From Paulownia fortunei (Eukaryota > Streptophyta > Magnoliopsida > Lamiales > Paulowniaceae): DNA of 64,000 nucleotides. The notes beneath the pieces are model-generated. The model was not told the DNA's origin, ran no database searches, and worked only from the letters and a program-made list of their open reading frames with translations. Both the position numbers and the translations under genes were made by a program. Positions 20,170 to 59,079 of the stretch are shown piece after piece; the first letter of the stretch is position 1; each line of letters begins with the position of its first letter. The stretch spans positions 16,683,420 through 16,747,419 of the forward strand of contig CM033116.1 in the NCBI GenBank assembly GCA_019321725.1, written 5' to 3'.

Positions 20170-20689
20170 TGTTGGGGTATCGATAGTATAAAATACACAA
20201 CAATAGTACTAATTATAGCAAGCTCTCAGGAAAGGCTGGAGGGGTTACAACGGTCCCACTTAAAACTCAGTCTTCTTAGACAGAACCTACTATTAAAAGT
20301 ACTATGCACAACGGACAAATATCCCAAAGTAAGTAAATATTGAATACTAACAATTAACAAAAGAATACCAGAATACTAAATGTGAAATTAAAAGACAAAA
20401 AGGAAAACACACACCAAATTTGATAACGAAGTTCGGCCAACTTTTGTCTATGTCTCCAGGCACCGCAACTGCGACAACTGCTTCACTAATCTCGCGAACA
20501 AATTACAACTTGGGTAAAATTACCCACAACTTAGAATTTCCTAATTAAAGAAATTCTACAAATATAGAGAGAAGATAATATTTTGGTGTGTTTCAAAACA
20601 AGGTGGAATAACCTATTTATAGGCTAAGGAAAAAAAGTCCCTTTGGTATTTAACCGATGTGGGATGGAAATAAGCAAAAAAAAACAACA
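20170..20689 (-). repeat. Copia 3' LTR
   Basis: TG...CA-bounded 520-bp copy, about 96% identical by eye to 24838-25359. On the minus strand it follows the polypurine tract AAAGGTGGAGATTTG (complement of 20690-20704). Confidence 0.95.
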
Positions 20690-20811
20690 AATCTCCACCT
20701 TTGCGCATTTTTCAATCCCACTCAAAATTCAAATTATTGTCTTCTCAACAAATGAAATAGTCTTCTGTAGTGCCTCCAAATGCGCCTTTTTGGCGCCATC
20801 TCAAATGTGCA

Positions 20812-23800
20812 GAATATTGGTCAAGTCTAAACAATGTTTAAACTTAACTGTTGTGACAACTTTAGTCATTATATCTGCGGGATTCTTGTAGTATGAATCT
20901 TCTGAAGATGTATATTACCTTCTTCAAGAATCTCCCGTACAGAGTGATAGCGAACATCAATGTGCTTCGTTCTTGCATGAAAGACTTGATTTTTCGCTAA
21001 GTGAATAGCGCTCTGACTGTCACAATGCACTGTAATGTACTTCTGACTAACTCTTAAGTCTTCAAGCAAACTTTGAAGCCAAATTGCTTTCTTTACAGCT
21101 TCAGTGACTGCCATATACTGTGCCTCTGTTGTAGACAAAGCAACCGTAGACTGTAAAGTAGACTTCCAACTGACTGGTGCTTTGGCAAAAGTAAACAAAT
21201 ATCCAGTCGTTGACCTTCGATTATCCAAATCACTTGCATAGTCAGAATCACAATATCCAACTACACTTTGACCAATTTTACCATCCTGCTCAAAAACTAA
21301 ACCAACATCTACAGTATTAAGAATATACCGTAGAATCCATTTCATAGCTTGCCAATGACCTTTACCCGGATCATGCATATACCTGCTCACAACTCCAACT
21401 GCTTGTGAAATGTCAGGCCTCGTACACACCATTGCATACATCAAGCTACCAACTGCATTAGCATACGGGACTTTGGCCATGTACTCTTGTTCTTCATCAT
21501 TCTTTGGTGATAAATGTGCACTAATCTTCAAATGAGGAGCAAGTGGTGTACTTATAGGTTTTGAGCTTTCTGTCATACCAAAACGTTGTAGTACCTTCTT
21601 CAAATATTACTTCTGAGTCAAACAAAGCTTGCTTCTCGTTTTGTCCCTACTTATCTCTATTCCGAGAATCTTCTTGGCTTTCCCTAGATCTTTCATTTCA
21701 AACTCTTGATTCAATTGAGCCTTCAATTTGTCAATCTCCATTTGGCTCTGAGATGCGATCAACATATCATCAACATATAAAAGTAAGTAAATGAAAGATT
21801 CATCTTGTAACTTGTGTAAGTACACATAATGATCATATTTGCTTCGAGTGTACTTCTGCCTCATCATAAACTTATCAAATCGCTTGTACAACGATTTGTA
21901 AACCCAATTTTCTTTCCCAACAACTTTGAATCCTTATAGCTGAGTCATGTAGATTTCCTCTTCCAAATCACCATGCAAGAATGTCGTCTTCACATCAAGT
22001 TAAGCTAACTCCAAATTCAACTGCGCTGCCAAGGTCAACAAAATTCTAATGAAAGAATGTTTAACAACTGGAAACTCATTATAATCAATTCCTTCCTTCT
22101 GAGCGTAGCCTTTAGCTACCAATCTTGCCTTGTAGCGCATATCATTCTTGCTAGGAAATCCTTCTTTCTTTGCAAATACCCATTTGCATCCAATTGTCTT
22201 CTTGCCTTTTGGTAGTTGCGTCACCTTCCAAGTCTTGTTCTTCTGAAGAGACTGCATCTCTTCCTCCATAGCACCTTTCCACTTCTCACTTTCTGAACTT
22301 CGAACTGCATCTTGAAAAGTGGATGGAACATCATCATCTACAACTGGAAGTGCATAAGCCACCATATCTGCAAATCGAGCAGGTTTGTGAATTTCATATC
22401 TAGGCCTTCTCATTGCAATTGGTTTAGGTTGCTCCAACGATTCTTGGGTCTGAACTTCTTCTTCTTCATCTGACAAATCCTCTGTTACTGGATTGTCACA
22501 CTTAGCTGAAAATTTTGCCATTCCTTCTACCTCCACCTGCTTTGGTGTATGCTCCACCTGTTGTGGAGTACTGTCGGTCTTTTCACGTGTTACTTTTTTC
22601 AGCATGGCAAGTTCATCAAAGATAACATCTCTGCTAAACAACACTTTCTTTGACTCGAGACACCAAAGTCGGTATCCCTTTACGCTAGAGGTGATTTCCA
22701 TGAATAATGCCTTTTTTGCTCTCGGTTCTAATTTTGATTCCTTCACATGATAGTAAGCAAGAGAACCAAAAACATGTAAGGAATCATAATCAGCAACAGG
22801 TTTTTCAGACCATACCTTTAAAGGTGTTTTACCACCTATTGCGGATGATGGCAATCGATTTATGAGATGTTGCGCATATGTCGCAGCCTCAGCCCAGTAC
22901 TGTCTGCCCAACCAGCATTGGACAACATACATCGAACTTTCTCCACCAAGGTTCGATTCATGCGTTCTGCTACCCCATTTTGTTGTGGTGTCCTCCTGAC
23001 TGTAAAGTGTCGAACAATGCCATACTTATGACAAACATCTTGGAAGGGATCGCTTGTGCATTCTCCACCATTATCTGTTCGGAGAACTTTGATCTTTCTT
23101 CCAGTCTGATTCTCAATCTGTGTTTTCCACTTAAGGAAAATTCCAATCACTTCATCCTTAGTCTTCATAGTATACACCCAAACTCGTCTGAAAAAATCAT
23201 CAATAAAAGTGACAAAATAATGTTTTCCTCCCAAAGATAGTGTCTTGGAAGGTCCCCAAACATCTGAGTGAACATAATCTAAAATACCTTTTGTATTATG
23301 AATAGCAGTGCCAAACTTCACTATTTTTTGTTTTCCTAGGACACAATGTTCACAAAAATCAAGTTTACATACCTTTCCACCTTTCAATAATCCTTGCTTC
23401 GCCAGAGTTTACAAGGATTTTTCACTGGCATGTCCCAAGCGCATATGCCAAAGCTTGGTTGCTTCAAAATCCTTGTCATTGTTTGAAATAGCTGCTGATG
23501 CTGTCCCAATAACTGTACTACCTTGGTAGTAATACAAATTATTTCTTCTGATACCTTTTATCACCACCAGTGCGCCGGAAGTAGCTTTCAAAAATCCATC
23601 TCGCATAGTCACAACTAAACCTTTGACCTCCAAAGCTCCCAAGGAGATAAGATTTTTCTTCAAATCCGGCACGTACCGAACATCCATCAGAACTCTGGTC
23701 GAACCATCATGATTTTTCAATCGAATTGAACCTATCCCAGTTGTCTTACAAGCATTATCATTGCCCATGTAAACAACTCCTCCATTGATCTCCTGAAAAT

Positions 23801-24759
23801 CGAAGAACCACTCCCTTACGGAAGACATATGATAGGTGCATCCAGAATCTAAAATCCATTCGTCTGAATGGGATGTTGAAGGCAATACCACCAGTGAAAA
23901 TTCTGAGTCTTCACTTTCACTTTCAGCTACACATGCATCTTGAGTAGCTTTTCCTTTCTTCTTCAATTTGGGGCAGTCTTTCTTCCAGTGTCATTTCTCA
24001 TGGCAGAAAGCACACTCATCTTTGGCAGGTCTGGATTTTGAACGGGATCTCCAACTTCTTCCCTTCTTTTGGCTTTGTGATCGTCCTCTTGCAACCAATG
24101 CTTCATCTTCTGCTGCTATGTGCTTGTTTTCTTTTTTATTCTTTTTTCTTAATTCATAACTATACAAAGCAGCACAAACTACAACAAGAGATACATCATC
24201 TTTCCCATAAAGTAAAGTAGTTTCTAAATGTTCAAATTCATCAGGAAGGGATGATAACAACATCAAAGCCAAATCCTCATCACTAAAGGTTACATCCAAA
24301 TTAAATAAATCTGCAACCAATTGATTAAAGACAGTAATATGATCATTCATAGATGTACCTGGGCGGTACTCAAACCGGAACAAATGCTTCTTCATGAGAA
24401 GTTTATTCTGACCACTCTTTTTCACAAATTTGTCCTCCAAAGCCTTCCACAATGTGTAAGCAGAATTTTCATTTTTAAATGCATATTTCTGCTCTTTGGA
24501 CAAGCACGATCGAATTGTTCCACATGCCAAGTGGTTAATGGTTTTCCACTCTTTTTCTTCAACATCATCTGGTTTCTTTTCTTCAATGGCGATGTCTAAA
24601 CCTTGCTGAAATTAGACAATCCAGCACCTCGCCTTGCCACATGCCGAAATGACCCGTACCATCAAATATCTCCACCGAAAATCTAACATTTGGCATTACC
24701 ATCCTTCCTGGTATGGACGAGGAGGTTGATGCTCCGGTTGTGGAAGATTCAGTAGTCAT
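20812..24759 (-). pseudogene. Copia gag-pol polyprotein, disrupted
   Basis: One long frame in origin, starting at the ATG at 24759. Recognisable in order: gag with a CxxC zinc knuckle (CAFC near 24005), protease (DSGCTYHM near 23850), GAG-pre-integrase and integrase (HSDVWGP and TDNGGE, 23.3-23.0 kb), reverse transcriptase with the YVDD motif (near 21775), and RNase H (CDSQSAIHLAKN, near 21000). Breaks seen: a frameshift near 24612, stops at 23991-23993 (inside the zinc knuckle) and 23409-23411, a frameshift near 22905, stops at 22000-22002, near 21935 and at about 21607, and a frameshift near 20905. The element cannot produce its proteins, but the breaks are few, consistent with a fairly young copy. 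Confidence 0.92.
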
Positions 24760-24823
24760 TTCGAACTCAAATAATAGTATTCAATATTACAATCAAAACA
24801 AACGAGCCTAGGCCGAACCTTCG

Positions 24824-24835
24824 GCTCTGATACCA
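24824..24835 (-). promoter_or_regulatory. Copia primer-binding site (initiator tRNA-Met)
   Basis: The minus strand reads TGGTATCAGAGC, the classical initiator tRNA-Met complement, two bases inside the 5' LTR. Confidence 0.95.
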
Positions 24836-24837
24836 CT

Positions 24838-25359
24838 TGTTGGGGTATCGATATTATAAAATACACAACAATAGTACTAATTATAGCAAGCTCCAAGGAA
24901 AGGCTGGAGGGGTCACAATGGTCCCACTTAAAACCCAGTCTACTTAGACAGAACCTACTATCAAAAGTACTATGCACAGCGGACAAATACCCCAAAGTAA
25001 GTAAATATTGAATACTAACAATTAACAAAAGAATACCAGAATAGTAAATGCGAAATTAAAAGACAAAAAGGAAAAAGCACACCAAATTTGATAACGGAGT
25101 TCGGCCAACTTTTGCCTATGTCTCCAGGCACCGCAACTGCGACAACTGCTTCACTAATCTCGCGAACAAATTACAACTTGGGTAAAATTACCCACAACTT
25201 AGAATTTCCTAATTAAAGAAATTCTACAAATATAGAGAGAAGATAATATTTTGGTGTGTTTCAAAACAAGGTGGAATAACCTATTTATAGGCTAAGAAAA
25301 AAAGTCCATTTGGTATTTAACCGATGTGGGATGGAAATAAGCAAAAAAAAAAAACAACA
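24838..25359 (-). repeat. Copia 5' LTR
   Basis: TG...CA-bounded 522-bp copy; on the minus strand it lies upstream of the primer-binding site and gag. Confidence 0.95.
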
Positions 25360-26940: not shown

Positions 26941-28261
26941 TATATTTCGTACATCTATATATATATTATATAGATGTATATATATTATATTTTTATATAT
27001 ATAATTAATACATAATATTTTGATATTTATTTATAAGCTCCTAAATTTATTTTCTAATAAGAATTTACACCCTCTTAATTAATATGATAGTGCCCTTACT
27101 TTTTTTTTATTATTACCATAACTATCACTATTTTCTCCCTAATTAATTTATTTGCATAGTTTATCCTACGTCGATAAATACAATGATGTCACATTTTACT
27201 TACGTGTATTCTAATAGTTGATATCTAAATTCTCGTATCTTAATATCAACTCAACCAATTAGATTAAAGAGTTTGGAAACTAATATTGGGTGACAACTTT
27301 AAAAGTGTAATTATTAAAAATACCGTATAAAATATAGTGTATTATGAAATATCAATTAAAAATACAAATAACACATACGTAGCATGAAATACATAAATTA
27401 TATTGGTTAGGTGAGTAGCGCAATGCTCAGATATTACACATGTCTTGATAAATGTATTGTAAAAAAATCTAATTATCCCTTTCTCAGCGCACATAATATG
27501 AATGGATTTTGCTTCAGAGTTGTTGGGAGAACTACTAAGCATAAATATGACACCAAAAAGTAGGTAAGAATTTTAGTTGCATAGGATAGAAAGATCTATA
27601 AATTTAGTCTTGCTCTTTATGGGATTTCAGAAATAGTCCAACTTCAAAGAAAAAAAAAAATCACGCACATTTTGCCAAAACTTTTATTATCTTTAGAAAA
27701 CTTACGGACTCATGCACAGGGATCACACTTCATTACTTTTTTGAATGCAAAGGGATAAAATAAGAGTAAAATAGTACATTTAGTACTATAGGATAAAGTT
27801 CTTGGAAATTTTAGTCTTCCATTTTATGGTATTGTGGAAATGGTAGTAGTTTTTAAAAATAAAGTAGTTTTTGGTCTCCTAATTTTTTCAATATAGCCAC
27901 AAGTTAGTGTCTTTTTATGAGAATCTCTCCACGAGGTATGATATTTATTAGCATGGTGAGATACTTTTTGTAGGACAGGCAACAAGTTGAACAAGACAAA
28001 TTTTAATGTAATTGTTATTCTACCTAAATGGAAAAAAAATTCTTTTATAAAGAGATTGTTGGGGTCAACCCTAAGTTGTGGTACCTATCCCACAAGAAAA
28101 AAGGAATTAGCACAATTAGTTATAGTTGATTGAGACTAACACTAACCTAATTAATTTAGGATTTCAATTGGCATCGGCTAGAAAGTATTGCGAATTTTAT
28201 GAACTTAAGTGCACGTTACCATATATAAGTATAAAGTCACCTTCAAATACTTAATTCACCT

Positions 28262-29101
28262 CCCAAATCCTTATGATTAACAAATTATTTAATTAGTGAC
28301 CAAATAATTAGAGACATTAAGACAATGAAGAATGCTCAACCTATAAAAATAAATCAAGAATTAAATTCATAAAAATATTCAAAACATCCTAATTAGCTAA
28401 CATTAAAACCCTAGAAAATAGAATTTAGTTCATAGCCATAAGCTTCAAATCCATAAACAAATTCATGTTCATGGTAAAGGAAACGAGAATAGAAAAATGA
28501 AGAAGAAACTTTGAAAATCTTCAAAAATGATGGTCTTCTCTTGATTTCAAGCCTTTGCCCTCTTGTTCTTCTTTTGAATCTCTTGTTCTCTTAAAGCCCA
28601 AAAGTCCCCAATGTGTTTAGGGGTTCTTCTATTTATATCCCCACTCCCGAAATAGAAGGAAAAAGATCTAATTTAATTAGAACCATCAAATGGTGACCCG
28701 TCCTGAAATCTTGGCGTTGGGTTGCCAATCGCAAGAATAAATTTCGTAGTGGGGATGGATTACCAAAAGCTGGGGATAGGGCACTATATTCTCTGTTTGT
28801 TGAAAAGTTCACTAGGGATGTATCACAAAAAGGATCCATCCCCATCGCTGCAGTTTCTGCTCTCTTGAAATGGCGTTAGGTCACCAGAAACTGGGGATCC
28901 ATCTCTACTGCTTCAGTTTTTCTTTCCATTGACTTTATTTTTTCATCAATTCAAGTTTTTTTTTGTTTTTTCCAATTTCTTTCTCGTTTCCTAGTTTCAG
29001 CAAAATCATAAACAAAAACACATAAAAACAACTAAAAATTGCTTAAAACATAGAAAATATTAATTTCAAAGTACTCGAATAGTTGGTATAAATCTAATTC
29101 A
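28262..29101 (-). repeat. Outer Gypsy 3' LTR, truncated
   Basis: About 840 bp similar to 44450-45269. On the minus strand it starts TGAATTAGATTTATACC, right after a purine/T-rich tract (about 29102-29130). Similarity stops near 28262, so about 500 bp of the far end is missing compared with the other copy. Confidence 0.8.
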
Positions 29102-31975: not shown

Positions 31976-31980
31976 TTTGT
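31976..31980. repeat. 5-bp target-site duplication, left copy
   Basis: TTTGT directly before the TGATAAG start of the inner LTR; the same five bases lie at 42922-42926. Confidence 0.75.
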
Positions 31981-33957
31981 TGATAAGTGCATATTTTGAC
32001 ATATTTTTATATCAAATTCTTTATATTTTTTTAATTTATTCTTATTAATATTATAGTTTTATTAATGCTTTTGTGTTAGGGAATCAATGAATAAAAAAAG
32101 ATCAAAAAGAACCAAAATAAAATCAAAGAAGACAACACATTTTGTAAGCAAGTTGGGAGATAATATTTAATTGGATCAAATAAGCATCACAATTGGAAGA
32201 AAATGACTATTTTTTACTAAGTCCATAATGTGTAGATCAAAATATATATAAAAACTCAGTTGCACTTTGCAAGTGACTGTTGGGCTTGCATTAAATTAAA
32301 AATAAGTATATTTTCAGACTTGTGCAATTTTTGTATTTTGGGCATAACTCCATGTTAAAAAATCTTATGGACCTGAATCTTACTTTATTTGAAATATAAG
32401 AGATAGAACTACAACTTTACTGTTGGAAGCTTAACCCAATTTAGCTTTGATTATAGTAAAAAAATCATCCAAGTGTGTGTATTGGAAGGAATCTATATAT
32501 GTTAACATATCTCCTTAAATCAAACATAACTTTCTCCCTAGTGGTTCAAAGATTTTCTTACTGTCTATATTCCCAAGTTCCATGCATTCTATTTCCACCT
32601 AATCGCCATTGTTATTGTTTAAGTTTGTGTTAGGTATGTATGAGCAGCCTTTCTTGATCCCTTTGTGCAACTGCTTAGTTATTTCCTTTTCTTTTAGATA
32701 TATAAGCATTGGTCTTTTCTTTCTTGCTAATCCTGCTAAAACTCCAAGAAAATGATTTTTGCTGGTACCATTATAATTTGGGATACAGATTTTTTTTTCC
32801 TGAAGAATGTCGAATCAGAAGGAATGGAGAAAAATATGTGACAAAATTAGGATCTAAAAAGGACATGTGAATTTAGAGCATATTTGAAGTAAATTTGGAG
32901 TGCATTTGGAGATGTCAATTTAGGTACTCTTCTTTGATAAATAGAAGCTCTTGGATGTCATTCAAGACACATAAAAACCCTTAGAGGGAAAAAATATTTT
33001 ATTATTGTCTTTCTTTAGGCTAAGTTTTCTTATAATAATGTAAGTTTTCTAGTAGTAATAGATATGTATTTTCTATTTTTTCTTCTATTTTTAGTCTTTT
33101 CTACTTTCACTATATCCTTCTAAATTTTATTTAGTTGAGGTGAAGGGTGAACCTCTTGATGGAAGAAGAGGAATGGTTATAAAGGTGCATAATGTTCAAG
33201 TGTGTTATATTATTATTTTAATTTTTGATTGAAACCCTCCTTATTTTGTAGTGATTCTTGATTTATGTATCACCAATGAGACAACAAATACTTGAGTTTA
33301 TTTAGCTTATTGTATGGTTCTACTCCACTGACTGCTAATGTGAAACCTTGATTTGTGTAGATATAAGTATGTATAAATACTTAATCCCATAAATAAGTGT
33401 TGGCGATAAAATCCTTTTTGTTTAGTGGTGATTCTTGATTTTTGTATAAAAAATGACACAACAATTACTTAGGTTAATTCATCTTATTGTATGATTTTAG
33501 TACACCGACTGCTAACGTAAAACCTTGATTAATTGTAGACAAAGTTGTGCATAAATACTTAATCCCATAAATAAGTATTGGTATTAAGAGATAATTTGCA
33601 AACAACAAGACAATATCATGATTACCTTGATACATGAGCTATTTAATAACATCTTTCTATTGGAACCTTCGTTATGTATGGATTCAAATAGTGACATTTG
33701 AAAGAGGTATAAAGAATAAATAATCATTACTCTATCCAAAACTCAAAAGTGGATCTCTAATTCTCAATACTTTTATTACTTTGATTTTTTTGTTATAGCA
33801 TAATTTTTTATTTATATTATAAACCATAATTTGCCCATCTTTTAAGAAATATGAACCCAAAAACTTCAAACAACTTTCTTGTAGATCGATCTCGAATTCC
33901 TGATAAATTTATTACTTGACATAACCTGCACTTGAGTTTGCAACCTTAAAGTTATAC
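31981..33957 (+). repeat. Inner Athila-type 5' LTR
   Basis: About 1.98 kb, starting TGATAAGTGC and similar along its length to 41142-42921, with an extra stretch around 32.54-32.78 kb. By eye roughly one base in seven differs over the first 70 positions, so the insertion is old. The exact 3' edge is uncertain by a few bases. Confidence 0.85.
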
Positions 33958-33965
33958 CAAGTTTT

Positions 33966-33983
33966 TGGCGTCATTGCCGAGAA
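33966..33983 (+). promoter_or_regulatory. Inner element primer-binding site (tRNA-Asp-like)
   Basis: TGGCGTCATTGCCGAGAA, a slightly mutated copy of the Athila/Tat primer-binding word, about 8 nt after the 5' LTR. Confidence 0.8.
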
Positions 33984-34145
33984 AGGCAAGGTAAGTATTC
34001 AGGTTTGTAAATATTTTTTCTTTGTAAATATTTTTTATTTAGTTTATTTACGATTATATGTTAATACGGTATCGTAATCATAATTCTCATTGTTAGTTAG
34101 AAATAATTTTGAAACTTTATTTGAGTCACCTCCATACACTTTCAC

Positions 34146-36660
34146 CATGACTGAAAATGAAATTGTCTAAAATGAAAATGAGAATCAACATCTGCGTACC
34201 ATGTCTTATTACTTGCAACTTCTGCGAAATTTTTCTCATTCTTGTTTTATTTTTCCCCTCTATGCAAATAACTTTAAAATCAAGCCAGATATGATCTTTT
34301 TACTTCCTAATTTCTATTGTTTAGACTCTGAAAGCCCTTACTTATATCTGAAAGAATTTCATGAAATATGTGCCACTTTTGAAGATTAAATTTGTACAAA
34401 TGAGATCGTTAAGCTCAAATTATTTCTTTTCTCCATAAAAAATAAAGTAAAAAACTTGGCTTAACTCTTTAAAACCTAGGTCAGTTAGCACTTAGAAAGA
34501 AATACAAGCTGAATTTTTGAAAAAGTTCTTTCCAACTCATAAAACTATTGCTTTGAAAAAACAAATCTAATTTTTTTTCTCAAAATTCTAACGAAGCTAT
34601 CTTTCAATGTTGGGAAAGATTTAAAATTTTGCTGAATTCATGCCCACACCATGGTTTTGAAAAAATGACGTTTAATTATATTCTTTTGTGAATATTGAAC
34701 TCTTGAAACAAAATAATTTGGTGAAATAATGTGTAATGGTGAGTTTGTTGATAAAAAACCTAATGAAGCCCTAGAATATGTAGACTATTTGACAAAAAAC
34801 TCTCAATTATGGGATAGTGTTAATTCTTCCAAAAATTCTATTAGATATAATTTTGTTAATAATAATAAAAGAAAATATCACCTTAGTCAAGAAGATGATC
34901 TAAATATTAGGATTGCTAGTTAATAAGAAAAGTTGAGGCCATAGAAAGTAAAAAAATAACGAAAATTAGATCTATGTAAGATGAAGAAGTTTGTAACATT
35001 TGCGACCTTGTGGGGCATTCCACCAACGAATGCCCTAATATTCTAGCACAAGCAAATATCTTGAACACATTCAAAAAACCTTTTCATTCTCTATATTCTA
35101 AAACTTACAATCCATAATGGAGAAATCATCCTAATTTTTGTTCGCGAGATAAGAACCGTGCCCAATCACTATATTCACAAAAGCCAACAAACTTTTCTTT
35201 TTATTCAATTCCACATACAAAATCTCTTGAGGAAACTTTGCAAAAAATTATGCATGCACAAACAAACGTTAATAACCAGACTTCACAATCTATCATTGAG
35301 ATCAAAACCACACTTTCAACATTGACAACCTCTTTACATACTCATAAAAAAGGTAAATTTCCTACTCGACCTCAACCTAATCCTTCCACTCATTGTCATG
35401 TTTCTTTTTCAGGTGAAAATTCAATCAAGGAGGCTAATTCGATCACAACTCTTCGAAATGGAAAATTTGTTGACAAGATCATTCATCCTAAGGAGAAACC
35501 AAAATTAGTAACCACTCTTAAACCTCTATTTCATACTCATGTAACACCTCCACCTTTTCCTAACACGTTAACAAATTCTAAGAAAAATGAGCAAGAAAAT
35601 GAGATCCTTGAGACTTTTCAAAAAATGAAGGTAAACATCCATCCTCTTGATGTGATCAAGCAGGTGCCTCGATATGCTAAGTTCCTTAAAGAGCTATATA
35701 CTAACAAATGGAAGTTGAGGGAGGATGAAAAAGTTAGTATGGGAAAAAATATTTCGGTGGTTCTTTAAAGAAAACTCCTTCCAAAGTGTAAGGATTCGGG
35801 CACTTTTAACATCCCTTGTACTATTGGTAAGACCAAATTTGAAAAATGCATGTTAGATTTGAGAGCATCAATTAATGTTATGCCATATTCTATTTATGTT
35901 TCTCTAAATCTAGGATTAAAATAAACTAGTGTTATCATACAATTGGTTGATAGATCTAATGCATATCCAATAGGGGTTGTGGAAGATGTTCTTGTGCAGG
36001 TGAATGAATTAGTTTTCCCTGATGATATTTATGTTCTTGAGATGTAGGATGGAACATACCTTAATCCTACACGCATTCTTTTGGGAAGATCATTCACGAA
36101 GACAACCTGAGCTAAAATTAATGTTCATGATAACACTCTTTCTATGGAGTTTGATGGCGAGGTTATTTAATACAATATTTTTGAAACTATGAGACATCCT
36201 ACTAACATGAATGCTTTTTCTGCAATTGACATTATTCATTCCAAATCACAATAAATGCTTTAGTTCACTGGTAAAGATGGAGTAGAGGTTACTTTACAAA
36301 AAACATCTTTTGATGGAGGGTTTGAAAGAAAAGAATTTGGACGTGCAAATGCTAGGGGATATGAAAAATGATGTAACGGGGTTGAATTCGTTGCTAAAAA
36401 GTCAAGGTATGATGTCTTTTATTTTGAATTATCAATATCTAATGAAAGGTTTCTACCTTCTGTGGTGCAGACACCTATAATTGAGTTTAAACTAATCATG
36501 AACCATCATAAATATATCTACTTGGATGAGAAAGAAATATCACTAGTCAGAATTGCTAAAGACCTCACTCAAGTACAAGTGGAAAAACTTATTTGGATGC
36601 TTCAAAATTATAAAACGGTGATTGGATGGTCAATAACTTTGGCAGCATATGTTGATGAGT
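34146..36660 (+). pseudogene. Inner Athila-type gag-protease remnant
   Basis: A start-like ATG at 34147 is stopped after a few codons. Gag blocks in order: YANNFKIKPDMIFLLPNF and SPYLYLKEFHEICATFED (34.26-34.39 kb), FQCWERFKILL-like (34.6 kb), MCNGEFVDKKPNEALEYVDYL (34.73-34.79 kb, first 20 residues typical of Athila), and a zinc-knuckle-like CNIC. An open stretch at 35238-35768 holds the gag C terminus (ITTLRNGK, then PRYAKFLKEL). The protease DLGAS motif is DLRAS near 35860. The frame at 36462-36662 is the segment that normally precedes reverse transcriptase (IAKDLTQVQVEKL, then VIGWS). Reverse transcription and integration domains are absent after it. Confidence 0.85.
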
Positions 36661-37943
36661 GATTAAGAAGGTAATATCAGGCTGAGGACATTAAACTAAG
36701 AGCTTGTTGGGAGGTAACCTAATGAACGAAAAAGAATATTATGAGAGCCTATAATCACAATTTTGTTTTCTCTAACTTTCATTCTCTTTTCTTTTTGTCC
36801 ATTTATTTTATTTTATTTTGTCCTAATAAAAAATGCGTGTTAACCATGTGGTAGATAGTATTTTTTTTAATTTTGTCATGTAAGGGCACATGGTAGTAAC
36901 TTTTCGACAAAGAAAACTACTACAAAGGTCTTGCAGTGTGGATTTTATTGACCCACTTTTTTTAAAGACACTTGCACTTTCTACAAACATTATGAAAATT
37001 ATAAAAAAATAAGATACTTCTTAGTTAAGTGGTGGATAACAGTACTCCGTGGCTATTGAAGTCGGACTTATCAATTTCCCAAATAACTGAAATCTTTGTA
37101 CAAATTTTCTCTCTTTTTCTCATTCTCTTTTTTTGTTCTTTTCAAAATAGATGACATTTTTCTAACTCTCAAGAAGCGATTTTCTTTTCTTCCTAAAATT
37201 ATAATTTTAAAAATGTATAAAACAATGATTGAAAGATTAAGGATGATTATGCATAAAAGCATCACAGGGGACATACGATGGATAATTGAAGCAAAAGTAA
37301 GAGTAGCATGTGAATTTTCATACGAGTTTTCACACTTGTTTACTAGATACATGCTTGATTTTGAAAAAAAAAACACTTATTCAAAAAAACGAAGGGTAAA
37401 AAAAATGCAAATTTGTCACAAATATGCTTGATGGATTTGCAACATAAAGTGTCGCTCCTTAGGAATAGTTTCTAAAATTGAAAAGATAAAATTCAATTCG
37501 TTATGGATGGATTGAGTAAAGAGTCTTTAGATGACTTTATATTGACTCTTGAGATGCATTTATGTGGATTAGTATAATGTGCAATTTTTTATTTATGGAA
37601 TCACTTCCGGGATGAATATGAGCGTTATAGTATTGAGAATCTAACATAAAAGATCATGTTTGCCAATTTATAAGAAAACTAGATGGGAAGCATATTCTCG
37701 ACCCATATAGGGCATTTAAGTCGTCACTGGATATAAAACCAGAGAAAGATGTAAGCTACAGTCACAACTACGTGTACATTCACATGTAGTAGTTATTTTT
37801 TTTTCAAACTTTGTGTCATTATTTTCAACCTTTCTGACAAAAGAAAAGACATGGAATAATGTCTTCCTTATTCACACCTTAATAAATGACACCGTACTTA
37901 CTTCATTTTTGCACAACTCACTTTCAAAAATAAAAATTAAAAA
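36661..37943 (+). other. Post-pol interior of inner element, no RT/IN
   Basis: It starts with the conserved post-pol word ending GCTTGTTGGGAGGTAACC. The rest has no recognised protein; short frames at 37071-37431 on both strands are low-complexity K/F-rich products. It serves as the leader of the LOG-like frame. Confidence 0.5.
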
Positions 37944-38624
37944 ATGAAAGTTCTTTCCACTCATAAGTTCAACTGTATTTGTGTCTTTTGTGGAACTAAT
38001 CTAGGAAAAAATGGTAAGTTTATAGGGGCAGCCAATAATATTGGTAGAACTTTAACAAAAATAAAAATTCATTTAATGTATCGGGGAGGCAGTCAGGGGT
38101 TAATGGGGAGTGTTGCTACTTCTGCTCATATAGGAGAAGTAAAAGTTTTAGGAATTATCCTAAAACCTTTAATAATATATAATATCACAGGTATGTCAAT
38201 CAGAGATGAGCTAAAAGTGTCACATATTCAGGACATAATACCTAACATGTTAAATAATGTGGATGCATTTATCACTCTACCTAGTAGTTTTGGTACACTG
38301 GATGAATTATTCCAAGTTGTCTCTTGGGCACAACTCAACATTCACAAGAAACCTGTGGGTATTTTTAATATTAATGGTTTCTTTGATGGTTTGCTATCTT
38401 TTGCATATCATGTTGTAGAAAAAGATTTTATTTCACTGTCTGTTAGACAAATTCTCATTTCTGCTCCAACACCTGAACAACTGATTGATCAACTTCTAAC
38501 ATATGTGCCAGAACCTAATCCAGCCTTGGCTCATGTGGATTGGTCCAACATGAACAATGATAAAAAACACAAAATGAATTTGACTCTCAAACTTGTGAAA
38601 TTTATTTTTAATGGTTTCAACTAA
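37944..38624 (+). CDS. LOG-family protein (lysine-decarboxylase-like), intronless, inside Gypsy element
   Basis: A 226-aa frame co-linear over its whole length with plant LOG enzymes, which release free cytokinin base from cytokinin riboside monophosphate. Visible blocks: ICVFCG (12-17), YRGGSQGLMG (46-55, YGGGxxGLMG in the family), VLGIIL (68-73), SWAQLNIHKKPVG (127-139) and ISAPTPEQL (172-180). Key changes: the PGGxGTxxE motif is PSSFGTLDE (113-121), and the Arg-Lys of HxRKA is Ile98-Ile99, so ordinary LOG catalysis looks unlikely. Host LOG genes have several introns; this copy has none, which points to capture from an mRNA. It lies in the same orientation as the inner element, between the post-pol region and the 3' LTR. 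It has no stop or frameshift although the element's gag-pol is riddled with them. It could be a conserved domesticated gene or a lucky pseudogene. Confidence 0.82.
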   Translation: MKVLSTHKFNCICVFCGTNLGKNGKFIGAANNIGRTLTKIKIHLMYRGGSQGLMGSVATSAHIGEVKVLGIILKPLIIYNITGMSIRDELKVSHIQDIIPNMLNNVDAFITLPSSFGTLDELFQVVSWAQLNIHKKPVGIFNINGFFDGLLSFAYHVVEKDFISLSVRQILISAPTPEQLIDQLLTYVPEPNPALAHVDWSNMNNDKKHKMNLTLKLVKFIFNGFN

Positions 38625-39102
38625 TAGTGTACATATTGTGTTGTTTCAACTTTATTTTCCAATAAGTCATATTTTAGGTAATATATTCTAAACTCTATTT
38701 TTCTATCTATTTTCGATATTGGGGAAAATGTCTCGATTAGGTTTGGGGAAAAGATAGTTGATATCATGTCTTATATGTTAAATGTGTGTTTTTTTAGTTT
38801 TTTTTAAATTTCAAGCGTGCTTTCTTTTGGGTTCGCTAAAACCATGAAAAATGGTGGTAGAGTAAAGAGTAACTTTAACACTCTTGAAACATACCCCTAT
38901 TTATTTATTTATTTTTTGCATAACATGACAAGTTTGTGAGGTTTTTAACAAAAGCTTGTGAATTGTCAATTTTTGTTTAGTCGTAGATGTTTGGGGTGGC
39001 ATCGAGTCTGGTAATCGAATTTTTGGGTCGTGTTTCGAAATTTTTTTTACAAAAAAAAATTATGCTAACCTTTGTTTCTCTCGAGTCCCCCATTTTCTTA
39101 TT
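38625..39102 (+). other. Inner element 3' interior after LOG-like frame
   Basis: AT-rich, no coding recognised; no poly(A) tract follows the stop codon of the LOG-like frame. Confidence 0.45.
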
Positions 39103-39545
39103 TATTTTACTCTTTCTCTTTCTCCACCTTTTTTCGTCCTCATTTTCTTCTACTTTTTCCCCCCTTTTCTCTTCATCTTTTTCTTCCCTCTTTTCTCTTT
39201 CTTCTTCCCTATTTTCTCCTCCCCTCTTCTTCTTCTTCTTCTTCTTCTTTCTTTTTCTTCTCTTTTTTCTATTTCTTCTTCCCTTTTTTTCTCTCCTTCC
39301 TGAATCTCCTCCCCCTATTATTATTCTTCTTTCTTTTTCAATTTTCTTATATTTTTTCTCTTTTTCTCCTCTCCCTCTTCTTCTTTTCATGTCTTTTTTT
39401 TCTAGGTTCTACACTCCACCCCTTTATCATCTTCTTTCCCTTTTTTATTTGCTTCTAGGTTTCATCCTCCTCTTTTCTTCTTCTTCTTCTTTTTTTTTCT
39501 AGATTCCTCCTCTACATCTTCTTTTTTTTTCCTCTTTCTTCCTAT
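39103..39545. repeat. Polypyrimidine (CT-rich) tract
   Basis: About 440 bp almost purely T and C on the plus strand, with a (TTC)n run at 39225-39249. Long frames on both strands here (Phe/Leu/Ser-rich or Lys/Arg/Glu-rich) are composition artefacts. Confidence 0.9.
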
Positions 39546-41126
39546 ATTTTCTTATTCAATTAGGAATGAATTTAAAGGTTTTGGACCTAAGAGTTGAGGG
39601 GCTATGTTGGTGATGGTTTGTGTAAGAATTTGAGGTTAATTTTTTATTTTTTAAAAAATTTATTTTGGATACCTAATCGGATAATTCAGGTAGAAAAATT
39701 CTACCCAACAATCGATCAAAAAATTATGCAATCAAGATTGGATTATCCAAAATCTAGAATTTTTTAAAAAACCTGATCCAATCGGGTTGGGTTTTATCCG
39801 ACCGGATCAGGTCAGGATCCGAAAACTCAAAATCGAATGCCGACCCCTAGCAGATATTTTTCCAACTTTAATGATTAAAATTAAGCACAGATAATGTGGT
39901 TTTGGACTTTGATATTATTTTTTAGTTAATATATTTTTGTGATAATTATACTAAAATCCTTTTGCACAAATAGTTATGTAGACAAACATGTTAAAATAGG
40001 TCATTCTTATTCCCTTGTTTTAATTATCACTTGGATTTTCGACATGTAGGGGTTGAGTGTTAAAAAAATTTCTTTTAGTCTGTCAAAGCGAGTGACTGAT
40101 TGAGCACCACTTGAAAAATGATTAAGGCATTAGACTTTATAGTACCATGGCCAAATAAGCTTATTCCCAATGTGATGTTCCAAGAAAACATCCCCAACAC
40201 TTTGAGCTTTTCAATCAATAAGTATTTGTTCTGTGGTAATCATATATTCTTACCTAGCCTAAATACACTATTATTCTACCTTTGTTCTAAAATATGATTT
40301 GAATCTTAAGAAATATTCCATTGACAAAGTGAGTTTACAAAATAAATTTGGGTTGGAATAGAAGATAAATGTGGGGCAGTTTCAATTCTAAAAAAAAAAA
40401 AAGTTGCAAAGCATTAATAATATTATAAGTTGCAACTAAAAGTGGGATGTTGCAAAATTAATAAGAGTGATGAAGAAGGGTCTAATTCAATAATAATAGG
40501 CTTTGGTGTTGAAATTCGTAGAGTATGAGAATTGTTCATTAATAAACTTTATGTCTCCAATCCCATGAAGTTTTTAAAAATTTTGTTGCATCATATCTTT
40601 TTTTTCTTAGCCACATCACTACCTTTTGACCCCATTACAATCTTTGTTGACGACCTTTTAATTTCATTTGGTGTTTTCGGTGTAGTTGATATTTTTACCA
40701 AAAGAAGAGCCTATGATGTTTAACTCTTCCATTAGAGATTGGGTAATAGTTTTTGTGAGGTTCTATAAGATTTCACTTATTTGACGCATGCATGGTTTCG
40801 TCACTGTTAACATTAACTATTCACACATACATTTGAGTATGCTTATTGTAAAAAAATATTGACTTTTGAATGACTAATGATTAGATTTAACACTTGTTTG
40901 ATTTTATTTTTATATTGCTTTGTTGTTTCTTCAGAATAATAGTTGGAAGTTAGTTATCATAAGTGTTTGTGGGTATCACCGTTGGAAACTCTTACGAGAC
41001 TATAACTCGTGATCTATGGGTCACCTAGAGATTTAAAGGCTTGCTTCATATGCTAAATACAATCGTAATTTTCTACGAAAGTGGATCACGTTAAATTTGT
41101 TTTAGGCTTCTCGAGGAGCAAGGGTT
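39546..41126 (+). other. Inner element 3' untranslated region
   Basis: No gene seen. 39.66-39.85 kb holds GGATC/CCGAC-rich words resembling a decayed hAT MITE end (GCCGACCCCTAG at about 39838), without a clear partner. The last 200 bp include words common to Athila 3' ends, leading into the purine tract. Confidence 0.5.
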
Positions 41127-41141
41127 AAGTGTAGGGGAATT
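41127..41141 (+). promoter_or_regulatory. Inner element polypurine tract
   Basis: AAGTGTAGGGGAATT directly before the TGATAAG start of the 3' LTR. Confidence 0.75.
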
Positions 41142-42921
41142 TGATAAGTGCATATTTTCACATATTTTTGTATCAAATGCTTTATGCTCTCATTGCTTTA
41201 TTTTTGTTAATATTATAATTTTATTAATTTTTTGTGTTAGGGAATCAATGAATAAAAAAATATTAAAAAGAGCAAAAATAAAATCAAAGAAGACAACACG
41301 TTTCGTGAGCAAATTAGGAGGTAATATTTTATTGGATAAAAAAACATCACAATTAGAAGAAAAAAATGCTATTTTTGCCTAAGTCTATCATGTGTAGATC
41401 AAACTATATACAATAAATCACTTGGACTTTGCGAGTGATTGTTGGGCTTACATTAAATCAAAATAAGTATGTTTCCAAACTTGTATAGTTTTTGTATTTT
41501 GAATATAACTTCATGTTCAAAAGCCCTATAGACCTGAATCTTACTTTATTTGAAAGTTAAGAGATAGAACTACAACTTTTCTTTTGAAGCCTACCCAATT
41601 CAATCTTAATTATAGTAGAAAATTTGTCCAATTATGTATATTGGAAGAAATCTATCTATACTGACATATCTCCTTAAATCAAGCATAACTTTCTTCCTAG
41701 TAGTTAGAATTAAGTGATTCAAGTTGAAACATGAAGCTAACAGAAAATACACAACTTTCATGTTGATCATTTTTTCAAAATCAATTGATTTCATAGAAAA
41801 AAAATATGTGATGAAATTTAGATCTGAAAATGATATGTGAATTTAGAGCATATTTTAAGTAAATGGAGTGCATTTGGAGTGAATTTGGAAATGTCAATTT
41901 AAACAATATTCTTCCATAAATAGGGATTCTTGGATGTCATTCAAGACATATAAAAACTGTTAGAAAGGAAAAGAAAGTTTTATTGTTATCTTTCTTTAGG
42001 TTGAGTTTTCTATTGGTAATGTCAATTTTCTAATAGTAATAGAAATGTATTCTCTAGTTTTTCTTCTATTTTTAGTTTTTTATACTTTATTATGCCTTTA
42101 TAAATTTCGTTTAGTTGAGAAGAAATGGTGAACCTCTTAAAGAAGGAAGAGAAACGATTATAAAGATACTTAATATTCAGGTGTGTTGTATTATTATTTT
42201 TGATTGAAACCCTCCTTGTTTTGTGGTGATTCTTGATTTATGTATCACCAATGACACAACAAATACTTGAGTTCACTTAGCTTATTGTACGGTTCTACTC
42301 CACCGACTACTAATATGAACCTTGATTTATTGTAGATAAATACGTGCATAAATACTTAATCTCATATATAAGTGTTGCATTAAAACCCTTCTTGTTTAGT
42401 GGCGATTCTTGATTTTTATATTACTAATGACACAATAAATACTTGGATAAATTTAGCTTATTGTATGGTTCTACTACACCGATTGCTAATATGAAACATT
42501 GATTTGTTGTAAACAAAGGTGTGCATAAATACTTGACTTCATAAATAAGTATTGATGTTAATTTACAAATAATAAGACAATCTAATAATTAGCTTAATGC
42601 ATGAGCTATTTGATAACATATTTCTATTGGAAACTTCATTATGTATGGATTCCAATAGTGACATTTAAAAAAGATAAAAATAAATAAATAATCATTTTTC
42701 TATCCAAATTCAAGAGCGAATCTCTAATCCTTAGAACTTTTATTACTTTAATTTTTTAGTTATAGCATAATTTTTTTTATAATCTAAACTACATTCGGCC
42801 CTTCTTTTAAAAAATATAAACTGAAATCTTCAAACAACTTTCCTGTGGATCAACCTCGGAGTCCCAAGAAATTTATTATTTGACACAACCTGCACTTGGA
42901 CTTGCAACCTTAAAATTGTAG
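41142..42921 (+). repeat. Inner Athila-type 3' LTR
   Basis: About 1.78 kb copy of the inner LTR, directly after the purine tract and ending just before TTTGT. Confidence 0.85.
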
Positions 42922-42926
42922 TTTGT
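42922..42926. repeat. 5-bp target-site duplication, right copy
   Basis: TTTGT after the inner 3' LTR. Joining the two flanks restores the outer gag reading. Confidence 0.75.
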
Positions 42927-43932: not shown

Positions 43933-45269
43933 TGGATTTTTTGAACACAAGAATACGTTATCGTAGATAAATAATAAAGTAATGAATAGGATATCGTTCT
44001 CACGAGAACTGATGAACTATTAAATATCGAAATTGAGTTAACTTTTGATTTGAATAAACACAAGAAATTATTGATGGTTGTAAACTAAAACTAACTAAAC
44101 TAAACTAATAATCAAAAGCAATTAAAGATGAAATTAAATAACTTAAAGGCCTAAGATTTACGATTTCACCATAATTAAATTGAATTAAATAATCTATCTC
44201 ATCAATCACAATTTATTTTTCAAGTGATAGTTGATAATCCCTAAATTATCCATTAGCCTGTGTCAAAATCTAACGAAAATATCATCAATTACTAACCTCA
44301 CTATATTCCTATTTGAATTACAATAATCAATAATTCAGTAAGTTTTATGGATCTTAAATATGACTACATAAACCATGTAAATATATTTATATCTCACATG
44401 CAATTTATGATATTTTTCACAGTGAACAAAATACATAATTCATATCCTGGATCTTTATGATTACCAAATCCTCTAATTAGTGATCAAATAATTAGAAGCA
44501 TTAAGAACAATAAACAATACTTAACCTGAAAAATTAAATCGAGAATTGAATTGATAGAAATATTCAAAATATCTTAATTAGGTTACATTAAAACCCTACA
44601 AAAGAGAATTTAGTTCATAGCTATAAGCATAGAATCCATAAACAAATTCATATTTATAGTAAAAGAAAAAGATAATAGAAAAAGGAAGAAAAAACTCTGA
44701 AAATCTTTAATGACGATAGTCTTCTCTTGATTTCAAACATTTGGCCCTTGCTCTTCTATTAAATCTCTTGTTTTCTTAATGCCCAAAAGTCTCCAATGTA
44801 TTTTTGGGTCCTCTTATTTATATCCCCACTCCTAAAATAGAAGAAAAGATACCTAATTTAATTAAACCCATCAACTGACAACCCGTCCCGAAAATCTTGG
44901 AATTAGGGCTCCAATGGCAAGAAAAATTTCCGGATGGATCGCCAAACACTAGGGACAGGACGCCATCTTCTTTGCTGTAAAGTTCACTGGGGATGGTTCA
45001 TCAAAAGCTAGGGAACCATCCCCATTGCTGCAGTTTCTGCTCTATTAAAATGGTATTGGATCACTAGAAAGTGGGGATCCATCCCTAGTGCTGCAGGTTT
45101 TCTTCCCACTGACTTTATTATTTCATCAATCTAAGTTTATTCGCTTTTTTCAATTCCTTTTCCTATTATATGCAAAGTCATAAACAAAATACATAAAAAC
45201 CAAAAAATTGCTTGAAACATAGAAAATGTTAAGATCAAAGTAATTAAATAGTTGGTGTAAATCAACTCA
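43933..45269 (-). repeat. Outer Gypsy 5' LTR
   Basis: About 1.34 kb. On the minus strand it starts TGAGTTGATTTACACC and ends close to the primer-binding site. It contains short inverted-repeat modules around 44.94-45.1 kb. Confidence 0.75.
44989..45023. repeat. Perfect 10-bp inverted repeat in outer LTR
   Basis: GGGGATGGTT (44989-44998) and its complement AACCATCCCC (45014-45023), separated by 15 nt. A related pair (28751-28760 and 28834-28843) occurs in the other LTR, and further partial modules follow. Confidence 0.8.
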
Positions 45270-56364: not shown

Positions 56365-59079
56365 ATGGTGACAAAAAAGAATCTTGTTATATGTAGGGAG
56401 ATACAAAGAGATCATCCCTTTGGTATTTTCTATGGCCAAAATCCATTAGAGTTCTCTTTTCCCCTTATGCTATTGGAGTTGTCATCCCTCATCATCGTTT
56501 CTCGTGTTGTTCGGTTTCTCCTCAGGCCCCTAGGACAGCCTAAGGTTGTCTCAGAGATCATTGTGAGTTTCGTTATCTTTTCTCTTTGATTCTTGGCTCA
56601 GTTTGTGTTATTCAGTATGATTCATCTAGAGTTTTTCTCCTCTTTTTAATGTTATCCAACCGTCTGAACAAAAGGATGTGCAACATTACAGTGGTGGCTA
56701 AAGCATCATTAGTCTAGATGAACCATTTACGGCATTTGACTCAATTTTGTGTTTCACACTATTGGAAATGATGATCTTTTCCTAGTTCATTATGTGTTCG
56801 TCGTTTTGATTTCTTAAGCTAATGAATCATTTTTTTCTTTTTCGTGTTTATATAATTGATTTCTAGGGTGGCATCATACTTGGACCATCTGTGTTAAGTC
56901 GTAATAAGAAGTTTCGTGCATACATGTTCCCTGATAATGCCGAGTATGTGATAAAGAATATTGGAGTACTGGGGTTCATGTATTTCCTCTTCTTATCTGG
57001 AGTGAAAATGGACATTAGTGCAATAAGGAAAGTGGACAAAAAGCATTGGTATATTGCACTAGTTGGGATACTTGTACCACTGTGCTGTAGTGCAGGTGTT
57101 GCATTTATGGAGAGGAAATCTTTGGATAAGGAAATTTCGAAAGCTTCTTCAATTTGGGGAATAACTTCATCTTTGGCTATCACAGCATTTCCTGTTCTGT
57201 ATCGTATTGTGAAGGAGCTAAACCTACTTAGCTCTGAAATCGGGCGGATGGCCCTGTCAACAGCAGTAATCAGTGATGTAATAGGAATGAATGGTATAGT
57301 TATATTTGAGGCATCCAAACAAGGGAGTATAGGCCTATAGCTGCTTTATGGTATATGATTTCGTTGATAGTCGTCATGACATCAATCATGGGTGGTGTTA
57401 GACAAGCCATGATGTGGATTGTTCGAACAACCCCTGAAGGGAAGCCGGTGGATCAAATTTATGTCGTTGCCATATTGTTGGGTGTTATGGTCGTTGGATT
57501 TGTAGCTGATATGTTTGGCCTAGCCATTGCCAACGGGCCACTTTGGCTTGGTTTGGCTGTGCCGGATGGCCCTCCATTGGGAGCCATTCTTGTGGAGAAA
57601 AGTGAGACAATTGTAATGGACATTCTCATGCCATTTTCATTTATGTATGTGGGCATGATCATGGATCTGTCCTCCATGAGCGGCTACTGGTCTCATTTAA
57701 GACCGCTTCTTTACATGGTTTTAGCTGGATACACGATTAAAATGGTTTCTACACTCATTGCTTCTCGTTTCTTAGACATGACAATTAGAGATAGTCTCAC
57801 CCTTAGCCTGATAATGAGTTTAAGGGGTGAAGTGGAACTTCTATTGTTTATTCATTGGATGGATTTTGAGGTACCTTCTGGTTTTTTAATTGATGTTCTT
57901 AACTTTCTGGTGCAACTTGTTCTCTCTTTATACATATGATTCCTCTTGTGACCTCTGCAGATGTTAGGCCAGCCGCATTTCACAGTTCTGGTGCTATTGA
58001 CAGTATTTGTGACTGCTTTAGCTACACCCTTAATCAGCATACTCTATGATCCTACAAGGCCTTATATGGTGAACAAGAGACGAAATATTCAACATACCCC
58101 TCCTAACACCGAACTCCATATTGTGGCTTGTATTCATGGTGAAGAAAATCTGTATGAACTTGTGAAATTACTCGAATTCTCCAATCCAACTGTTAACTGT
58201 CCTTTCTCTGTCTACGCTTTATTCCTCATTGAGCTTGTTGGTCGTGCCAACCCTGTGTTCATCGATCATGAGAATGAAGAAAAAGGAGCTGATCAGTCCA
58301 GCTCCAGATCAATCCATAATGCTTTAAAGATTTTCCAGGAGGCCAGAGGTGAGTACATAAAGATACATTCCTATACAGCAATCACCCCCAAGAGAAGCAT
58401 GTATCAAGACATTTGTGAGCTAGCTCTTTCTAAGCAAGCTTGTCTGATCATCGTACCATTTTGCAAGAGGATATCGGATAACCTCAAAGGGACAAAATCC
58501 GTGAAGCAAGTCTTTCAATCCGTGAGCTCTAATGTTTTGGCACACGCACCATGTTCGGTAGGAATTCTAGTAGACAAGAGTCCATACCAAAATCTTGTTA
58601 ATGGTGTTTTGAGAAGTTCGATGCATCACTTTGTTGTTCTTTTCTTGGGTGGAGCAGATGCTAGAGAGGCCCTTTCTTATGCAGATCGCACGGCCGGAAG
58701 TCCAGGTATATTACTCACTGTAGTTAGATTTCTCTCACATGACAACGAGGGAGATAATGAGATGGAGAAGAAGCTTGATGATGTCCTGGTGACATGGTTT
58801 TGGGTGAAAAACGAAGGGAACAATCGTGTTGTTTATCGAGAGGTAGTGGTGAAGAATGGGGAAGAAACCATTGCTTCTATTCAGGCAATGAATAGTGATT
58901 GCTGTGATCTTTGGATTGTGGGAAGAAAGCATGGAATAAATCCTGTTCTCCTACAAGGACTATCAAATTGGAGTGAGAACACTGAGCTTGGAGTTATAGG
59001 AGAGTATGTTGCCTCTGCCGATTTCAGCAGCAGGGCTTCTGTTTTAGTGGTGCAACAGCAAATTTTAAGAGGCCAATAG
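56365..59079 (+). CDS. Cation/H+ antiporter, CHX family (CPA2), with one frameshift
   Basis: Endomembrane or plasma-membrane K+(Na+)/H+ exchanger. Exons 56365-56562, 56867-57870 and 57961-59079 with GT/AG introns give about 773 aa, usual for CHX. An N-terminal membrane segment precedes LLRPLGQPKVVSEII; then GGIILGPSVLSRNKKF, FMYFLFLSGVKMD and the TM6-type AVISDV with its acidic residue. After the break come GLAVPDGPPLGAILVEK and HWMDFE; exon 3 resumes with FTVLVLLTVFVTALATPLISILYDP, here a membrane segment, and the large cytosolic tail. Exon 2 is 1004 nt, one short of a multiple of three. The frame runs into a stop at 57338-57340 while the next frame continues with AALWYM, so one base was lost near 57325 (next to GGG). 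As read, it is a pseudogene or carries a sequencing error; everything else is intact, including the stop at 59077. Confidence 0.9.

Follow-up and report, generated by a model that had tools for sequence, protein, structure and literature searches.

A 64,000 bp stretch of the genome of Paulownia fortunei (order Lamiales; CM033116.1, positions 16,683,420 to 16,747,419; here called the window) contains a LOG-family reading frame that lies within an LTR retrotransposon. The question raised by this locus is whether the frame is a hormone-activation gene moved by the element, a gene that the host has kept, a message that landed in a dead element by chance, or a regular part of a mobile family. We consider it very likely that it is cargo, carried by a fossil member of a Ty3/Gypsy (Athila-like) family with many copies, in which two extra genes, one for a nucleic-acid-binding protein (NABP) and one for a LOG, follow the integrase gene.

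The frame, at 37944–38624 on the forward strand, is open and intronless over 226 codons. Its protein matched the PF03641 profile (E 4.1e-26) and Arabidopsis LOG3 and LOG8 (E 2.4e-46 and 1.7e-42, respectively), and the predicted structure is LOG-like (pLDDT 83.1, best PDB match AtLOG3), though this result is driven by the alignment. Profile, Arabidopsis matches and predicted fold place a LOG domain in the window copy, and the earlier note's description of a full-length, intronless frame of 226 codons agrees with its coordinates, length and matches. That note had also called the frame intact, which holds for its being open but not for its content, as the stop used by the rest of the family (after codon 217) has been lost, the last nine codons extend beyond it, and Arg98, Gly114 and Gly115 are gone.

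The element that carries the frame spans approximately 11 kb. Its parts are listed below; the LTR ends, the TTTGT duplication, the primer site and the purine tract were placed by eye.

31976..31980, no strand: left target-site duplication, TTTGT, read from the sequence
31981..33957, forward: 5' LTR, 83.8% identical to the 3' LTR
33966..33982, forward: primer-binding site, read from the sequence
34120..35498, forward: decayed gag, from DNA matches to related copies
35499..36662, forward: remnant of the gag–protease linker and the start of RT, assigned by eye only
36766..37014, forward: scrap of the integrase zinc-binding region, from a DNA match to contig L001 (see below)
37147..37708, forward: decayed NABP gene with a frameshift and stops, ends approximate, matching P0115 and L001 (see below) and 19 of 20 genome copies
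37944..38624, forward: LOG-family frame, open, 226 codons, from the ORF, PF03641 and Arabidopsis LOG matches, and genome copies
38992..39856, no strand: copy-specific polypyrimidine-rich insert of approximately 0.87 kb, absent from all 20 genome copies compared
41120..41141, forward: purine-rich tract ahead of the 3' LTR, read from the sequence
41142..42921, forward: 3' LTR, from the LTR alignment; 3' LTR sequence also follows LOG in all 20 copies
42922..42926, no strand: right target-site duplication, TTTGT, read from the sequence

All of the landmarks reported previously, namely two LTRs, a primer site, a purine tract and a 5 bp duplication, were thus located. Over 1664 aligned sites the LTRs are 83.8% identical, with a K2P distance of 0.186 and 18 indel events, calculated on slightly shorter LTR ends than 31981–33957 and 41142–42921. 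Both LTRs include a tandem duplication of approximately 176 bp (33219–33581 and 42203–42554). The primer, at 33966, is presumably tRNA-Asp-like. The region from 33958 to 35498 matches genome copies, in whole or in parts, with 83–85% identity, and in one of those copies the homologous region matched the gag profile PF03732; the gag pieces of the window on their own gave no profile match. Neither a profile match nor a blastn match in the 20 genome copies was found for 35499–36662, within which 35553–35639 matches a linker in LOG gene models from Xanthoceras with 29.6 bits, against 26.2 bits for the highest-scoring of 1000 shuffles. Relative to related copies, RT, RNase H and most of the integrase are missing, and the integrase survives only as a fragment of its zinc-binding region: 36766–37014 matched the integrase DNA of L001 (E 1.5e-17), and 36869–37007 matched 19 of the 20 genome copies. 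No flanking duplication of at least 5 bp was found around the 38992–39856 insert in the stretch searched. As the LTRs are only 83.8% identical, most of pol has gone and the NABP gene is broken, the window element looks like a fossil and is probably an old, dead member of its family.

An outer pair of repeats with 80% identity (28245–29094 and 44429–45263) flanks the LOG element, which therefore appears to be nested in another element; the outer repeats are probably the LTRs of an older element that the LOG element invaded. A younger LTR element that looks Copia-like by eye is present on the minus strand at 20170–25357, with LTR-like repeats that are 96% identical and an integrase core match. 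Ordinary plant genes or parts of genes are found at 668–1183 (MEA1 family), 57355–59079 (cation/H+ antiporter, CHX) and 60207–61532 (multicopper oxidase).

When PF03641 was used to query the 509 Mb P. fortunei assembly, 2486 first-look candidates were returned, and each of the 150 that were scored was above the cut-off. The window LOG protein returned 4255 candidates, and the 150 scored comprise the window copy and 149 others that are 67–73% identical to it and align over most of the length of the frame. With 149 further near-full-length frames in the same genome, the LOG match is not due to chance. Many of the 150 scored rows show one TGA within the aligned range, which in the 20 copies examined corresponds to the normal stop of the family, behind codon 217, that the window copy has lost.

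Twenty of the 149 copies, chosen by LOG score, were compared over approximately 10 kb each. LOG is present in all 20, and in 19 of them integrase, NABP and LOG follow one another in the same direction, which accords with the suggestion that LOG occupies the position of env-like or extra genes; the exception, L023, has LOG only, without integrase and NABP. Upstream of LOG, the region from 37024 to 37936 matches 19 of the 20 copies with 81–84% identity (in two pieces in L029), and L023 matches only from 37706. Downstream, all 20 match 38636–38991 (some starting slightly later), parts of 39857–41141, and the 3' LTR. In 16 of these copies the LOG frame is free of stops over 217 codons, and in three of the 20 its ATG is missing. 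The earlier note had proposed that the LOG-like gene travels with the element, and that genome copies sharing the element–LOG junctions would reveal this. As 20 of 20 copies have element sequence in common to the left and right of LOG, we conclude that it does. An intronless frame could also stem from the chance insertion of a spliced LOG message into a single dead element, but such an origin is ruled out by the flanks common to all 20 copies and retains next to no probability.

In one copy, Retrotrans_gag, Asp_protease_2, RVT_1, RNase H, integrase and Carla_C4 were matched above cut-off upstream of LOG, and by these profiles its domain order is that of Ty3/Gypsy. Of the features that define this superfamily, two LTRs and a target-site duplication were found in the window, whereas gag and the PR-RT-RNaseH-INT order were found in one related copy, the window copy having lost most of pol. 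The family is labelled Athila-like, provisionally and in preference to Tat, from the primer site, the 3' extra ORFs and sequence motifs. In another copy the LTRs are 98.2% identical over 1328 bp, and in three others 99–100% over 140–194 bp.

The gene that sits between integrase and LOG was absent from the first reading of the sequence and is a member of the Viral_NABP/Carla_C4 family of carlavirus-type nucleic-acid-binding proteins. In an Orobanche gracilis gene model, P0115, the part ahead of LOG scores above cut-off with Viral_NABP (1e-5) as well as with Carla_C4 (4.9e-5). This part matched 37165–37646 in the window (E 6e-30) in two frames, with stops inside, and the NABP region of the window also matched L001 DNA (E 9.5e-106). 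A shorter case, P0046 from O. hederae, matched the window with an E of 3e-15 and a best piece of 49.3 bits; in the shuffle control, 193 of 200 shuffles gave some match, the best of 26.9 bits. The window's own open NABP pieces gave no viral profile match. A search with the NABP part returned 119 proteins at E ≤0.1, including representatives from Orobanche, Striga, Xanthoceras, Acer and Parasponia, and among 33 aligned relatives Carla_C4 was found in 32 and Viral_NABP in 31 (E 0.001). NABP and a LOG-type domain occur in one gene model in five of the 119, namely P0249, P0259, P0274 and P0295 from Orobanche and P0294 from Acer, the LOG-type match of P0294 being below the curated cut-off. In the four Orobanche models, NABP is fused to a second, strongly diverged LOG-like part with an altered PGG motif.

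L001 (DAIEQH010000041.1) is a 3.3 kb contig with integrase followed by NABP and no LOG within the next 1 kb. It was deposited under a Candidatus Nomurabacteria MAG but its content is plant DNA, and as a Gypsy integrase and NABP are found together on a contig of a bacterial MAG, it is most likely plant contamination. P0293, from a 293-base contig deposited under Clostridioides difficile, may be a similar case. L001 is a weak candidate for a LOG-less relative, since 5 of 300 shuffles did as well as or better than its 3' match (L001 2533–2615 to window 38672–38756). Pairing of equal-sized contigs as a sign of NABP–LOG adjacency is only suggestive: four exact pairs were found between 17 LOG and 96 NABP contigs, against 0.54 expected, and one is too short for both genes. 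Three scans for relatives among viral contigs gave 10, 40 and 72 pattern matches, none of which was confirmed. The NABP model (pLDDT 64.2) returned six BFVD matches, all with E ≥0.52 and not significant; by name, three are RNA silencing suppressors, two giant-virus proteins and one a Cordyline virus protein. In the portion of PMC12172455 available, carlavirus NABP-type proteins are reported to be silencing suppressors, the chrysanthemum virus B protein being in addition a transcription factor that induces hyperplasia. By analogy, we infer that the element NABP may act in a similar way.

The open LOG frame of the window has to be reconciled with the decay around it. With the expected neutral change since insertion taken as half of K 0.186, simulation of the frame gave a probability of 0.22 or 0.16 for no stop and 0.044 for no frame-breaking indel, or 0.0098 or 0.0069 overall (about 1 in 100 to 150). 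These odds, the broken state of NABP and pol on the same element, and the predicted LOG-like fold, alignment-driven as it is, would favour domestication, in which host selection preserved this frame, perhaps for a role as a LOG partner without catalysis, as the rest of the element decayed. However, the active site and the family stop have been lost, and the simulation predicts that 17.7–18.1% of residues should have changed under neutrality. Among 58 columns conserved in 12 relatives, 11 are changed in the window only and one in the Paulownia relatives only, so amino-acid change in the window LOG fits the neutral level. As there are thousands of LOG candidates in the genome, a few open relics are expected and one that has stayed open against the odds is no great surprise. 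We therefore regard domestication as improbable and retain the fossil cargo reading.

Among 14 copies (91 pairs), LOG dN/dS by the Nei–Gojobori method is 0.34, rising to 0.48 against five more diverged copies and 0.445 against L037. Between the window and the 14 copies it is 0.58, or approximately 0.35 after 0.093 is subtracted from both dN and dS. Divergence is 0.042 in the 3' flank versus 0.014 in LOG (0.012, 0.008 and 0.021 at the three codon positions). As the copies were picked by LOG score, the low LOG dN is partly an artefact of that choice, and the share of open frames is raised. For NABP, the codon positions are nearly equal in six clean-frame copies (0.018, 0.018 and 0.023), and constraint is thus hardly visible.

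Related LOGs are found well beyond Paulownia. An initial protein search with the window LOG returned 96 proteins, 61 of them classed as plant-like, and in an alignment-based search 4997 of 7999 scored proteins matched at 1e-25 or better, the best 120 of the 4997 being examined. The largest clusters among the matches listed are those of P0120 from O. minor (328) and P0113 from O. hederae (244), counted as member sequences that are not necessarily separate gene copies. A tree built from 54 sequences places the mobile LOGs in a clade of their own, with a support of 99, to which AtLOG3 and AtLOG8 do not belong. Paulownia, Rehmannia, Orobanche and one further contig group together (100) and are joined next by Reevesia (99), while the node separating Xanthoceras has a support of only 59. 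The window LOG is drawn among the Paulownia rows, at a node without a printed support value. For four of the species, the order was taken from the taxonomy. The tree supports one ancient capture of a LOG gene but does not prove it, as only two host plant LOGs, AtLOG3 and AtLOG8, are included. A C-terminal LxLxL, mostly behind a basic stretch (e.g. P0001, P0013 and P0014), is found in 62 of 123 mobile-type rows of at least 205 aa, but in none of 51 Orobanche and none of three Xanthoceras rows. We take this end to resemble a plant repression motif.

Whether mobile LOGs could activate cytokinins depends on their active sites. The accessible text of PMC4979012 gives Arg99 and Glu122 as the catalytic residues of CgLOG, and Met96, His97, Lys100, Glu125 and Trp129 as its proposed prenyl site. 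In 139 mobile-type rows, the catalytic Arg is kept in 125, the Glu in 130 and each Gly of the PGG motif in 131. However, the position of Lys100 is occupied by Ile, Met, Leu or Val in 137 of the 139, Glu125 is replaced in 132 (by Gln in 76 and His in 56), and Trp129 is Arg in 55. All five prenyl-site residues are kept in the three Xanthoceras rows and in the two Arabidopsis LOGs. By this pattern of conservation, the machinery for hydrolysis has largely been retained and most lineages, though not Xanthoceras, have a remodelled prenyl pocket; cytokinin activation by mobile LOGs is accordingly uncertain. The window copy has Ile98, Ser114, Ser115 and Asp120, and thus lacks the catalytic Arg and an intact PGGxGTxxE motif. 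The earlier note's hormone-activation gene is therefore not supported for the window copy, and prenyl-site residues differ in most of the relatives; an active hormone gene is not the best interpretation of this locus.

Outside the dead window copy, elements whose LOG supplies the host cell with active hormone would be compatible with the widely kept catalytic residues and with the intact prenyl site in Xanthoceras. The reported induction of hyperplasia by a carlavirus protein of the NABP kind (PMC12172455, in the part available) points the same way, as both genes could then favour growth. Given the replacement of the prenyl-site Lys and Glu almost throughout, we find this doubtful for the mobile LOGs as a whole. 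We prefer, tentatively, a reading in which the element keeps the NABP–LOG pair because the pair helps replication: NABP would act on nucleic acids, either in the nucleus or against RNA silencing, and the mobile LOG would hydrolyse nucleotide monophosphates, true cytokinin activation being likeliest in the Xanthoceras-type LOG. The window's own LOG most likely now does nothing. A wider possibility, offered with similar reserve, is an ancient rosid/asterid retrotransposon lineage with a two-gene module, in which an RNA-virus-type NABP, with a possible role in silencing suppression or in the nucleus, is joined to a LOG retuned from cytokinin precursors to another nucleotide. This module would have been selected for making host cells permissive, and kept since before Lamiales separated from Malvales and Sapindales.

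Extra genes without a known purpose are often carried by plant LTR elements. In the mobile family described here, a gene from a viral family, members of which are reported silencing suppressors, is paired with that of a nucleotide- or hormone-processing enzyme, and the purpose of such extra genes becomes testable via the purified enzyme. NABP–LOG elements are found in plants of several orders, with a high copy number in Paulownia and, judging by cluster sizes, Orobanche. In such genomes, many genes annotated as LOG are probably cargo of transposons and should not be taken for expansions of hormone genes, and the pairing is relevant to the exchange of genes between RNA viruses and retrotransposons.

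Steinbauerova, in a 2011 abstract, is said to have described two Athila-like elements similar to LOGL4. The earlier note had known of no described LOG-carrying retrotransposon, but a YgdH (LOG) domain is reported in the available part of PMC9289625 from the Gypsy consensuses of two Citrus species, C. sinensis and C. clementina, and, without the filter, from those of poplar; the paper credits Steinbauerova 2011. In our searches of the open-licence literature, nothing else relevant to LOG and retrotransposons, and nothing relevant to NABP and retrotransposons, was found among the matches listed, and no print record of an altered LOG pocket or an NABP partner in elements was found. LOG terms are absent from the available text of PMC7264820, and that of PMC11593424, on plant LOG evolution, contains no word starting with 'transpos'. 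Carriage of LOG by Gypsy elements is thus already known, and the stronger claim to novelty lies with the NABP partner and the altered pocket.

AtLOG3 and AtLOG8 share their fold with the mobile LOGs and their catalytic residues with most copies; the mobile LOGs differ in being intronless and mobile and in the changed prenyl site of most lineages, and the window copy in having lost active-site residues. The Citrus and Populus YgdH elements and the LOGL4-type Athila-like elements are, like the family described here, Gypsy-type with a LOG-family domain. For the Citrus and Populus elements, which are from other plants, the accessible text covers domain presence only, without an NABP partner or residue analysis. 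The Gypsy elements of Phalaenopsis that carry an AlkB-type m6A demethylase gene (PMC9289625) are likewise a family that has fixed an extra enzyme gene, but with another enzyme, a single extra ORF, and activity shown in vitro. Finally, the Carla_C4 and Viral_NABP profiles of the carlavirus-type NABP/cysteine-rich proteins are matched above cut-off by the element gene in relatives of the window copy; the element NABP is longer than the carlavirus proteins, chromosomal, and part of a retrotransposon, and its activity is putative.
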